41,433 nucleotides of DNA from Clostridia bacterium (lineage in GTDB: Bacteria; Bacillota; Clostridia; Christensenellales; Borkfalkiaceae). Position numbers and translations under genes: made by a program. The notes beneath the pieces are model-generated. The model did not search any database and was not told the DNA's origin. It saw nothing but the letters and a program-made list of their open reading frames with translations. The stretch spans positions 1 to 41,433 of the forward strand of contig JAFQEM010000005.1 in the NCBI GenBank assembly GCA_017399035.1, given 5' to 3'. Each line of letters begins with the position of its first letter. Within the stretch, counting starts at the first letter, position 1. Shown here one piece after another: positions 4,979 through 16,683 of the stretch.

Positions 4979-5794
4979 TTAAGATTTTTTAATAATAAAA
5001 GTCTTTCCGTCAAGATAAGAAAGAAGAGTGTTTTTATCAAATTTTAACGTTAAAGACACTGCAGTTAGCCTTTGCGATTTTTCACCGACTTTTTCATTAA
5101 AAGCAAAATTGCCATACTTTCCGTCCCCCACTATAGGATAACCAAGGTGAGCAAGATGCGCCCTTATTTGATGAGTTTTACCTGTATACAACTCAACTTC
5201 TAAAAGTGAAGTTTGTCCATAATTTTCAATCACTTTATAACCTGTTTTAATATTGACACTGCCTTTAACTTGAGTGTCGAAAATCTTTACAGTAGAGGTT
5301 TTGGCATCTTTTAATAAATACGCGCTTAACACGTCTTGTGTTTTTCTTGGCACACCAACAACCAAGGCGTGATATTTTTTTATAAAAGTTCTCTCTTTGA
5401 AACCGTTTAATAGAAGTTCTTCCGCAGTTTTGTTGAGGGCAAAAATCATAATACCGTCAGTATTACGGTCAAGCCTGTGTATAAATTCAGCAGACGGATA
5501 ATTTTCTTTTATAGTTTCATAAACGCTTTCTGAAGTGTAACCACTCTTTTTATTTATAACTATAACGTTGTCGTCAGAATAAATTAAACTGAATTTATCT
5601 TTCTTTTCTACGGTGTAATAAATTTCCACCTTATCGCCAACGTTTAAGGTAACGTCCTCACTGACACGCTTACCATTGACTTTTACGTCTTTTTTGCGCA
5701 AGGCTTTCATAAACGTAGAAAAAGATAAATCATCAATATTATATAAAGCAAGTTTACTCAACTTACGATTTTTATCTGCAATAAAACTTTTCAT
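4979..5794 (-). CDS. RluA-family pseudouridine synthase with N-terminal S4 domain
   Basis: Isomerises specific uridines to pseudouridine in rRNA or tRNA. In its 271 residues an S4 RNA-binding domain comes first (about 10-60; KLSKLALYN, VKVNGKRVSEDVTLNVGDKV), followed by the synthase core with HRLDRNTDG, where Asp109 is the catalytic aspartate. The TGKTHQIRAHLAHLGYPIVGD motif region confirms the RluA/RluD class. Target sites cannot be assigned. It sits directly upstream of rqcH, so the two are likely one transcript. No good Shine-Dalgarno is seen before the ATG at 5794. A second RluA-family gene without an S4 domain is at 8700-9410. Confidence 0.92.
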   Translation of the reverse strand: MKSFIADKNRKLSKLALYNIDDLSFSTFMKALRKKDVKVNGKRVSEDVTLNVGDKVEIYYTVEKKDKFSLIYSDDNVIVINKKSGYTSESVYETIKENYPSAEFIHRLDRNTDGIMIFALNKTAEELLLNGFKERTFIKKYHALVVGVPRKTQDVLSAYLLKDAKTSTVKIFDTQVKGSVNIKTGYKVIENYGQTSLLEVELYTGKTHQIRAHLAHLGYPIVGDGKYGNFAFNEKVGEKSQRLTAVSLTLKFDKNTLLSYLDGKTFIIKKS

Positions 5795-13571: not shown

Positions 13572-13843
13572 GCCGTGCTATGCGGGGAGTTAGCGATGCC
13601 CTGTAATCCGCAATTCGCTTTAGCGGAGCAGAACGCTGTTTGAGGCTTTTATTGTGGAAGGTTGCGTGTGGCAAGGGGCGTTGATATTAAGGTCTTATGC
13701 AACGCGCCCCCGCGAACCGTGTCAGAGTAGGAATACAGCAGCACTAAACGGTTAGGCGCGTGTGATATAAGGTTGCTTTGAAGGAGTTACCTACCACACT
13801 ACCACTTCGGCAATAACTGTCGATTGCAGTGCACGGCTTTTTT
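13572..13843 (+). ncRNA. ffs: Signal recognition particle RNA, large Gram-positive type
   Basis: RNA scaffold of the SRP, which with Ffh targets membrane proteins to the Sec translocon. It is about 266 nt plus a T-run, like the Bacillus scRNA and unlike the short 4.5S form. The 5' Alu domain is recognisable (GCCGTGCTATGCGGGGAG, then ATGCCCTGTAATCCGC). The Ffh-binding helix 8 has a GGAA tetraloop closed by GTA/TAC, in the stretch near 13719-13745 (GTCAGAGTAGGAATACAGCA). The 5' GCCGTGC pairs with the 3' GCACGGC. It is divergent from ileS and has its own promoter. A T-run at 13838-13843 follows the terminal helix. Confidence 0.96.
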
Positions 13844-15353: not shown

Positions 15354-15794
15354 TTAGAGTGCTTTAATAAAAAGTTTTAATCTATTTCCCTTTGAATTTA
15401 TAAAATCTTGAACATATTCAAAGCCTAAAGCCTCGTTCAACTTTATACTCGCAATATTATCTTCTCTTATGCCAGCGTAAGCAACTTTAAAACCTTTCTC
15501 TTTTAAGTTGCAGAAAATTTGTTCTAGCGCAGTTTTTGCAATGCCTTGTTTTCTGTAATCTTGCTTAATTTCAGGGGCTACGCTAACAACGTTTTGAGAA
15601 TGCGCAACTACGTTAGCCACGCCCACTATTTTATTTTCAAATTCAATTAAGAAAAATTCAAAATATTTTCCGTTATGATTGCGCATTATTGAGTGTGATA
15701 TCATTTGTTCTCTGCTATCCTTTGGCATACTACCGTAAGAAAAGTCATCTAAAACGTTGATATCTTCTTTTGTTATGCTTTTTAACGTTATCAT
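15354..15794 (-). CDS. GNAT-family N-acetyltransferase
   Basis: 146 residues from ATG 15794. Transfers an acetyl group from acetyl-CoA to an amine; substrate unknown. Motif A, the acetyl-CoA pyrophosphate-binding loop, is QDYRKQGIAKTAL (Q/RxxGxA). The C-terminal strand-helix with NEALGFEYV is the usual GNAT end. The start is set by GAGGG six bases before the ATG; the open frame extends to 15875, but that extension is translated from the small-RNA repeat next door. It is the first protein gene after the ssrA array and may share read-through transcription. The 3' side holds only a weak A/T hairpin before the acyltransferase gene. Confidence 0.88.
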   Translation of the reverse strand: MITLKSITKEDINVLDDFSYGSMPKDSREQMISHSIMRNHNGKYFEFFLIEFENKIVGVANVVAHSQNVVSVAPEIKQDYRKQGIAKTALEQIFCNLKEKGFKVAYAGIREDNIASIKLNEALGFEYVQDFINSKGNRLKLFIKAL

Positions 15795-15832
15795 TTTACC
15801 CTCTTTTGAAGATTTTGAGAAGATTTTTGGAA

Positions 15833-15933
15833 TAAAGAAAGGGCAGGCTAATAGGTCAAGCCGTTGCAGTAGCAACGGTGGACAAAATAGCCTTTGCTTG
15901 ACATTATGGACTTGAGCGTGTCAAATATGCCCC
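15833..15933 (-). ncRNA. Putative small RNA, unit A3
   Basis: Predicted ~100-nt transcript from a G at 15933 to the T-run after the 3' stem. I see a closing stem GGGCA/TGCCC, a hairpin TTGACA/TGTCAA with a 15-base loop, and a second hairpin AGGCTA/TAGCCT capped by CCGTTGC-TACT-GCAACGG. Together these make a three-way junction. The 3' end TGCCCTTTCTTT has terminator shape. It has a promoter with TTTACA and TATAAT. It encodes no sensible peptide. I do not recognise a family. Confidence 0.65.
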
Positions 15934-15940
15934 AAACATT

Positions 15941-15968
15941 ATTATAACTCACGAAAAGATTTTGTAAA
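15941..15968 (-). promoter_or_regulatory. Promoter of unit A3
   Basis: On the minus strand, TTTACA (15968-15963), 16 bases, then TATAAT (15946-15941). The predicted start G at 15933 is eight bases downstream. The -35 box is at the centre of a dyad. Confidence 0.7.
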
Positions 15969-15983
15969 CAAAAGATTTTCGTG
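15950..15983. promoter_or_regulatory. Dyad-symmetric element, CACG type, over the A3 -35 box
   Basis: 34-base inverted repeat with arms CACGAAAA and TTTTCGTG, centred on GTAAAC. 13 of 15 positions pair. Placement over the -35 suggests an operator for a dimeric regulator, or a small A/T-rich RNA hairpin at the end of upstream transcripts. Confidence 0.6.
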
Positions 15984-15984
15984 A

Positions 15985-16056
15985 AAAAGGAGAAGCCCGC
16001 TATCTGTCTTACAGTTTGTCGATACAAACTGTTGACGTAAGGCGGTGATTACAAGC
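15985..16056 (-). ncRNA. Putative small RNA, unit B
   Basis: About 72 nt, unrelated in sequence to unit A but flanked by the same dyads. The core hairpin is CAGTTTGT-ATCG-ACAAACTG, extended by CTTA/TAAG and then CCGC/GCGG plus AGC/GCT across a bulge. The 3' end is GCGGGCTTCTCCTTTTT, terminator-like and complementary to an AGGAG ribosome site. The promoter (TTTACA at 16088-16083, 17 bases, TAAATA at 16065-16060) is weaker than those of A2 and A3. Confidence 0.55.
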
Positions 16057-16068
16057 TATTATTTAATC

Positions 16069-16105
16069 TTCCAAAAATATTTTGTAAAACAAAAGATTTT
16101 TGGAA
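16069..16105. promoter_or_regulatory. Dyad-symmetric element, TTCC type, over the unit B -35 box
   Basis: 37-base inverted repeat with 16-base arms that differ at one position. Outer arms are TTCC/GGAA instead of CACG/CGTG, while the inner AAAATCTTTTG core is shared with the CACG-type elements. The differing arms stay self-complementary. Confidence 0.62.
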
Positions 16106-16206
16106 TAAAGGAAGGGCAGGCTAATAGGTCAAGCCGTTGCAGTAGCAACGGTGGACAAAATAGCCTTTGCTTGACATTATGGACTTGAGTGTGTCAAATA
16201 TGCCCC
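16106..16206 (-). ncRNA. Putative small RNA, unit A2
   Basis: Same architecture as A3: a G at 16206 as predicted first base, GGGCA/TGCCC closing stem, two inner hairpins, and a 3' TGCCCTTCCTTT terminator end. Promoter TTTACA (16241-16236), 16 bases, TATAAT (16219-16214). The two differences from A3 inside the transcribed part fall in the first hairpin loop and in the terminal pyrimidine tract, so all the proposed pairs are retained. Confidence 0.65.
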
Positions 16207-16213
16207 AAAGATT

Positions 16214-16241
16214 ATTATAACTCACGAAAAGATTTTGTAAA
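16214..16241 (-). promoter_or_regulatory. Promoter of unit A2
   Basis: TTTACA, 16 bases, TATAAT on the minus strand. Identical to the A3 promoter. Confidence 0.7.
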
Positions 16242-16256
16242 CAAAAGATTTTCGTG
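16223..16256. promoter_or_regulatory. Dyad-symmetric element, CACG type, over the A2 -35 box
   Basis: 34-base inverted repeat identical to that at 15950-15983, located right after the T-run of the tmRNA-linked A1 stem. Confidence 0.6.
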
Positions 16257-16257
16257 A

Positions 16258-16320
16258 AAAAGGAAGGGCAGGCTAATAGGTCAAGCCGTTGCAGTAGCAA
16301 CGGTGGACAAAATAGCCTTG
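16258..16320 (-). terminator. Unit A1: tmRNA-linked stem-loop, probable ssrA terminator
   Basis: Starts 11 bases after the CCA end of tmRNA. GGGCAAGGCTA pairs with TAGCCTGCCC with one bulged A, enclosing the same CCGTTGC/GCAACGG hairpin as units A2 and A3. It ends in CCTTCCTTTTT on the minus strand. Compared with A2/A3 it lacks the promoter, the 5' strand of the closing stem and the first hairpin, but has gained GGGCA next to AGGCTA so that the full stem can still form. Confidence 0.75.
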
Positions 16321-16331
16321 CCCTGACGTGG

Positions 16332-16683
16332 TGGTGGAGATGCGGAGACTTGCACTCCGGTCTTAAACGACAGCAAAAAACCTTCTACATACTTATCCGA
16401 CGGTTGATTTTAGTGATAGACTTGGTCGTCGGCGACCAAAAGAATATCCTTTGATTTCAAAAGCCACAACCAAAGCGAAATCAAACCTTGATTGCCGTAC
16501 CCCGTCTAGTTGACGCCTTTACCCTTTCCAACGGGAGAGAAAGAGCAAGACGTACGCAATTACGCTGCGTATGCTAATTGATTATTGTTAGCATTTAAAT
16601 TTAATTTTCCGTTTTAACGAAGCCGAACCTTCGATATGCTTTCGTCCTTTACAAGTTCGCCTAATCGAATCTATGACATCCCC
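16332..16683 (-). ncRNA. ssrA: Transfer-messenger RNA (tmRNA)
   Basis: 352 nt, with SmpB rescues stalled ribosomes and tags the nascent chain. The 5' GGGGATG pairs with 3' CATCTCC followed by ACCA (encoded CCA). The third pair is G-U, the identity element for alanyl-tRNA synthetase. The 5' GATTCGA box is present. The reading frame starts at GCT (16592-16590) and reads ANNNQLAYAA then TAA (16562-16560), so the full tag would be A plus ANNNQLAYAA, ending in the AA expected for ClpXP. The stop codon lies in the hairpin ATACGC...GCGTA. The T-loop reads TGCAAGT, with G where T55 is usual. It lies 40 bases after metA. I see no clear promoter of its own; it may be processed from a longer transcript. 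Confidence 0.96.

Follow-up and report, generated by a model that had tools for sequence, protein, structure and literature searches.

The four structured units downstream of the tmRNA gene ssrA in the DNA analysed here (the window, a stretch of 41,433 nucleotides from a Clostridia bacterium) are, with a probability that we put at roughly 0.6, copies of a non-autonomous, REP-like DNA repeat which is mobile or was so formerly. The family seems to have spread by insertion and is best described as a REP/MITE-like repeat with an unusual preference for RNA-gene boundaries, and its members are probably not a dedicated set of small-RNA genes. The initial annotation had taken them for a gene family expanded beside ssrA, a reading that finds no support, the units being dispersed through the genome and the class, often by tRNA genes and in both orientations, with empty as well as occupied sites and with duplicated flanks; a small-RNA family local to ssrA was rejected on the ground of this dispersal.

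The array beside ssrA and the unit family

The units were scored with R1, a covariance model built on 25 units, and the following features were recognised in the window.

16332-16683, minus strand: tmRNA gene ssrA (Rfam RF00023, 129.2 bits), with 3' end CCACCA, read as the insertion host
16328-16219, minus strand: unit A1 (R1 97.7 bits), with CGTC tag, A-type hairpin 1, TCCT, hairpin 2 and 8/8 basal pairs
16177-16218, minus strand: linker, with part of a TATAAT box and a degenerate third hairpin (end CAAGTCCATAA)
16176-16066, minus strand: unit A2 (R1 83.9 bits), with an A1-like hairpin 1 interior, a TGTC tag, a broken outer basal stem and its own hairpin 2
16055-15946, minus strand: unit B (R1 73.9 bits), with a B-type hairpin 1, the tag lost and an A1-like hairpin 2
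15904-15945, minus strand: second copy of the linker sequence
15903-15810, minus strand: unit A3 (R1 35.1 bits, the weakest of the four), A2-like, with TTCT replacing TCCT and hairpin 2 truncated
15354-15797, minus strand: GNAT acetyltransferase gene (Pfam PF00583, E 2e-9), the neighbour 3' of the array and outside it
13573-13836, plus strand: large bacterial SRP RNA (Rfam match in the window)

That four structured units follow the tmRNA on one strand, as had been claimed, is borne out by the covariance model, which places them on the minus strand at 16328-15810. A1 starts immediately 3' of the CCACCA of the tmRNA and one additional CCA, and the 3' part of A3 runs into the leader of the GNAT gene. 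Among the four, the tag and all eight basal pairs are intact only in A1; A2 and A3 have TGTC at the 5' end and three of the five outer pairs broken, while in unit B the tag is absent, as are the outer pairs in the same register. The linker at 16177-16218 is the counterpart of a segment with the end CAAGTCCACCA in relatives. The repeat at an offset of 273 bases is present, but the 173 bases with three mismatches given for it are measured as 172 with three, or as 183 with eight. The array was not reported by Tandem Repeats Finder, and the tmRNA of the window was missed by ARAGORN and found by the Rfam model.

Promoters had been proposed ahead of A2 and A3, and the two best promoter-like sites of the region (TTTACA-16-TATAAT, 11/12) do lie there; in all, the array region holds eight such sites on both strands versus 1.9 expected. 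The terminators proposed for the same two units did not find the same support, the site scan having given no terminator-like site on the minus strand of the array. Searched against Rfam, as had been suggested, the window gave the tmRNA and the SRP RNA only and no family at gathering score for the units, whose matches at E values up to 10 stayed far under the gathering scores; 20 loci of relatives gave tmRNA, SRP RNA and tRNA only, with no family for the units.

From 5' to 3', a unit consists of an unpaired CGTC, hairpin 1, TCCT, a T-rich tract, an AT-rich hairpin 2 and a linker. Hairpin 1 measures about 65-70 nt and comprises five basal pairs, a bulged base (A in 88/119 units), three further pairs, an internal loop and a variable apical stem. 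Hairpin 2, AAAATCTTTTG…CAAAATCTTTT, is imperfect: it holds a mismatch that is conserved, while its outer stem covaries. The linker after it is often GAGCCCTAATAAT. Several tmRNA-linked copies carry a third hairpin with a CCACCA end and then an ordinary terminator-like hairpin (genomes G003 and G006).

The 498-base array has matches at dispersed places in its own genome and in relatives, and the covariance-model search of related genomes that had been recommended, carried out with the model from 25 copies, found the units to be widespread. There are 12 R1 matches in the window's own genome at E 0.01, and at the same threshold 38 of the 44 genomes of the genus have members, up to 18 per genome. 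Members were found in at least 102/396 genomes and at least 39/142 genera of the order at E 0.001, and in at least 67/391 genomes and at least 44/222 genera of the class at E 0.0001, both sets of counts being lower bounds since nine candidates were scored per genome. A pattern scan for the hairpin-2 core matched, among the matches listed, Candidatus Coproplasma, Candidatus Borkfalkia and uncultured Clostridia, which we take to belong to the order Christensenellales, many of these records having hairpin 2 only and no whole unit; unrelated phyla were also among the matches listed. Neighbouring units at most 400 nt apart are arranged head-to-tail in 14 cases, head-to-head in five and tail-to-tail in one (162 units, repeated loci kept). 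Carriage by viruses, phages or plasmids was considered and rejected: the compared stretches of two viral contigs matched the AT-rich core only and no unit, and a blastn comparison of the window array with phages and plasmids gave no match.

Placement at tRNA and tmRNA boundaries

Among the 154 distinct units with sufficient left flank, 42 lie exactly 3' of the CCA end of a tRNA or tmRNA, with zero gap, and 20 lie exactly at the 5' end of an antisense RNA, with one extra base, pointing away from the RNA. With tRNAs located by ARAGORN, the distance was 0 for 21 of 22 downstream units and 1 for 12 of 16 divergent ones. The left flank ends in tRNA or tmRNA sequence in 103/154 units versus 27/147 nearby control points, a share that is partly circular since the tRNAs used for reference were taken from these very loci; it is the exactness of the boundary, and not the overall flank share, that constitutes the finding. 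Some units are located inside tRNAs, in sense or antisense, and in four genomes a unit stands antisense at the end of rpsI (loci L036, L100, L104 and L107), the gene with the interrupted end in L036 being Ribosomal_S9. The boundary rule is strong in the genus of the window and weaker outside it: a tRNA or CCA (ARAGORN plus literal CCA) adjoins 57/113 units of the genus, 10/41 at order level and 9/31 at class level, and the 31/41 order-level and 22/31 class-level junctions with neither are a point against the mobile-repeat reading. The class-level boundary cases include tRNA-Met, tRNA-Ala and tRNA-Leu ends in other families. That units recur exactly at the boundaries of RNA genes, whichever way they face, speaks for a so far unknown insertion machinery.

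At tmRNA loci, a unit stands immediately after CCA in 9 of 34. A terminator-like hairpin lies within 25 nt in 18 of the 25 other loci, which include one with an A-type hairpin after CCA and a changed tag (G059) and two with a unit farther downstream (G043 and G049). On the tmRNA tree the occupancy state needs at least 6-7 changes, and its patchiness is no greater than with shuffled labels (120/500 as low), which counts against a mobile repeat. The state changes are not fewer than in the shuffles: occupancy is patchy, and gain and loss are not separable. In G018 the tmRNA is followed by two tandem units, one A-type and one B-type, each directly 3' of CCACCA, and in G003, G005 and G006 a B-type unit occupies the tmRNA CCA site. 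Since A- and B-type units are found behind tmRNA in different genomes, the site takes different types. Units in this position would add sequence to the ssrA precursor.

It is conceivable, if unlikely, that the units serve tRNA and tmRNA genes as 3' terminators or as hairpins for maturation and have spread by gene conversion, in which case hairpin 1 followed by UUCCUUUUU would end the transcript after CCA. Their position immediately 3' of CCA and the T-rich tract after hairpin 1 would suit such a role; a simple scan detected a terminator-like hairpin within 25 nt in four of the eight occupied tmRNA loci examined (the flank in G005 being too short for the scan), and the A-type hairpin of G059 is followed directly by TTTTT. 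However, the T tract is interrupted by the conserved TCC, the minus strand of the window array is devoid of terminator-like sites in the scan mentioned above, and the units of G003 and G006 are succeeded, farther on, by an ordinary hairpin that carries a T run. Copies at tRNA 5' ends, which point away from the RNA, and antisense copies inside rpsI and tRNAs would also go unexplained by terminators.

Other repeats were observed near these sites. A second small repeat (…GGAGAAAATT…GGACTAAACAGTCC…GACTGTTTATCGGG…CGCACAGG…) lies between antisense and sense copies of a tRNA or tmRNA 3' end in L010 (1380-1495), L026, L060 and L089, and a third one (GGCAAGGCTCGACTGCGCAAAAAGATGA…TTTTTTGCGCAAGGCAG) is located near units in L036 (1250-1330) and L038. 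Upstream of position 1620 in L107, an apparent remnant of an earlier insertion (target end, then antisense stretch) is found at the rpsI end beside the present unit.

Base pairing in the units

Rows entered the 25-unit alignment on the strength of the hairpin-2 core, a start resembling the tag and either a TCC-like motif or CCTTTT. Because hairpin 1 played no part in this choice, its covariation is independent of it, while the constancy of the tag (GTC in 25/25 rows, the first C in 24/25) and of the TCCT tail (25/25) is partly dependent on the choice of rows by a tag-like start and a TCC-like motif. Independent copies from the model search have a 5' CGTC as a rule. In the basal stem, changes on both sides occur at 8/8 pairs; across the whole structure there are 92 compensated cells versus 25.8 in shuffles, pairing exceeds all 500 shuffles by four of five measures, and the signal is lost when partners are slid. 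These comparisons show that hairpin 1 has been selected for base pairing, and the conserved fold described earlier is upheld by the compensatory changes within the family.

G-T pairs account for 17 of 952 stem pairs in the units versus 42 of 714 in tRNA acceptor stems from the same loci (p 1e-5; 24/143 units under the stem score and 1/103 tRNAs left out), and this scarcity suggests pairing as DNA rather than as RNA. Among stem mispairs, G-T outnumbers A-C (17 vs 7, p 0.06), which leaves room for an RNA role. A family of small regulatory RNAs, each with its own promoter, is nonetheless improbable in our judgement. The compensatory changes, the pair of strong promoter-like sites that precede A2 and A3 and the bias towards G-T among mispairs would be in keeping with it, but units face either way with respect to the gene beside them, three of the four window units no longer have an unbroken tag and basal stem, and G-T pairing is less frequent than in the stems of tRNAs. 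Any RNA arising from the window units is probably a by-product of read-through from ssrA or of promoter-like sites.

In three class-level loci (L329, L331 and L335), the 5' arm of hairpin 1 can form an alternative 9-bp hairpin with a 4-nt loop, perfect or near-perfect (judged by eye in L329), which comes near the dimensions of the CGTC REPs in the literature.

Flanking duplications, proposed insertion and related elements

Direct duplications which end 0-2 nt before the tag and recur 3' of hairpin 2 flank 31/113 units, versus 1/113 mismatched pairings. Five doubtful rows were dropped, namely L058, L078 and L063 because of a second tRNA gene nearby, and L041 and L116 for their distances (1.4 kb and 337 nt), which leaves 26; the strict count is 23 because, of those kept, L001 and L002 are tandem family units and L128 is a poor match. 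An un-anchored first run at score 11 had given 30/111 real versus 5/111 mismatched pairings, two of the latter near 50. The duplications vary in length from 10 to about 150 bp, and in all 26 rows kept the right-hand copy begins no more than 177 nt away from hairpin 2, which speaks against an autonomous larger element. In G006 (L030) about 150 bp is repeated, with an intact tRNA-Pro on the right and a left copy that ends, by eye, in the anticodon region. No recognisable duplication accompanies 82/113 copies, which counts against a mobile repeat, and we know of no target duplications produced by HUH-type REP/IS200 movement.

In 11 of 23 duplication units (L058, L078, L063 and L128 left out), a short stretch that begins between -2 and 12 nt from the end of hairpin 2 runs antisense to target sequence on both sides of the insertion point. 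The antisense score is at least 20 in 12/23, of which one does not span the site; in 480 other pairings the mean was 12.85, the 95th percentile 18, the 99th 22 and the maximum 64. The antisense cases share targets (rpsI three times, with a partly palindromic target, one tRNA-Arg twice and one tRNA-Pro twice), and the 11 amount to about seven different targets. A guide as a general rule was rejected, as the left flanks of the 113 units gave 9.7% at p<0.05 and a mean own score of 13.05 versus 12.34; the signal is confined to units with duplications. The antisense stretch might guide targeting, might result from template switching, or might in part be due to chance. That the family is a class-wide selfish DNA hairpin which picks mature tRNA and tmRNA ends, is targeted by complementarity and spares the RNA gene by duplication is improbable.

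If the units are a mobile or formerly mobile repeat, as we prefer, the hairpin would act as single-stranded DNA, in line with the rarity of G-T pairs in its stem, and would be recognised by a nuclease or transposase. The tag end would then be joined to a break at or near an RNA-gene boundary, and the insertion would duplicate flanking target DNA and so leave one RNA gene whole; essential genes would in this unusual way be occupied with no lethal effect on the host. For the window array this would mean that a copy of the A type first joined the CCA end of ssrA and that a segment of about 273 bp was then, recently, duplicated in tandem, its second period containing a hairpin of the B type; A2, B and A3 would be copies in decay.

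A retroelement joined to tRNA ends by reverse transcription, which would leave an extra base at copied 5' ends and long duplications, is very unlikely: the single additional base where units abut antisense tRNA 5' ends (those 12 of 16 by ARAGORN, 19 tRNA cases by flank comparison), the tRNA-end preference and the variable-length duplications agree with it, but insertion points lie inside tRNAs in sense and antisense, and reverse transcriptase (RVT_1) was detected in 5/44 genomes of the genus and in 0/9 with at least eight units, many genomes being incomplete.

As to an enzyme that could move the repeat as DNA, Y1 transposase (PF01797) is present in 6/44 genomes of the genus, many of them incomplete. 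It is a candidate mobiliser, since it occurs in 3/9 unit-rich genomes (at least eight units) versus 3/35 others (p 0.09). Four Y1 genes whose flanks were inspected are ordinary IS200-type genes with no adjoining units, and of seven Y1 loci L315 alone gave notable unit matches, one of 22 bits (E 8e-4) and one of 17 bits immediately next to the Y1 remnant. There (genome G023, L315 1395-1635), what is left of a broken Y1 gene adjoins a partial hairpin of the D type, which in turn comes after a tRNA-like end; an IS200-type element may have inserted into a unit. No larger version with genes of its own was seen. In L326, near-identical inverted units (1502-1606 and 5044-5148) bound a 3.4-kb stretch inside longer intergenic inverted repeats; as an autonomous larger element this pair was rejected, since it encloses genes for a GH130 glycoside phosphorylase, an AraC-type regulator and a cupin.

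The initial annotation had itself named an element such as a miniature transposon as the case opposed to its proposal, and this comes near to our best reading, a REP/MITE-like repeat, but no description of the unit family was recognised in the openly accessible literature searched, and the accessible parts of PMC8040213 and PMC12306157 hold nothing on it. CGTC-tagged REPs, as presented in the accessible part of Di Nocera et al. 2013 (PMC3733652), have an 8-9 bp stem, a 4-5 nt loop and mostly a CCA tail; they occur in five phyla, Firmicutes not among them, mostly as head-to-head dimers with clusters rare, and are reported to lack a dedicated transposase. The units share with them the unpaired CGTC at one end of the palindrome (with TGTC variants too), a conserved unpaired tail at the other end, a dispersed distribution and the lack of a reported dedicated transposase. 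In contrast to these REPs with their short stem and loop, the units have the long, bulged hairpin 1 with internal loops, the TCCT tail, a second hairpin and mostly head-to-tail pairs, together with tRNA/tmRNA boundaries and flanking duplications, neither of which was found in the part of PMC3733652 consulted. As these REPs are reported to lack a dedicated transposase, the present copies with empty sites and duplications are material in which to seek one.

REPs carry a tetranucleotide at the foot of the hairpin, according to the accessible part of PMC6006769. The units resemble GTAG REPs and REPINs with RAYT (TnpAREP) in having such a tetranucleotide directly 5' of the hairpin foot, a bulge and probable recognition as single-stranded DNA, but the tag is different, and a Y1 gene flanked by repeats was not encountered, a unit-like stretch lying beside one remnant only. 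Like MITEs and intergenic repeat units, they are short, non-coding and dispersed, with some copies flanked by duplications; unlike MITEs, they have no terminal inverted repeats that we could see, and their duplications are variable rather than of one fixed short length. Integron attC sites carry the end motif RYYYAAC/GTTRRRY. The units are similar to these sites in their imperfect single-strand hairpins, bulge, central loop and modular arrays, but no such ends were seen on reading the unit sequences.

A hairpin-2-like palindrome without hairpin 1 (TTCACGAAAAATCTTTTGC…GCAAAATCTTTTTCCGTGAG) is found, sometimes in tandem, directly after apparent gene ends in other uncultured Clostridia (L201, L223, L231 and L264).
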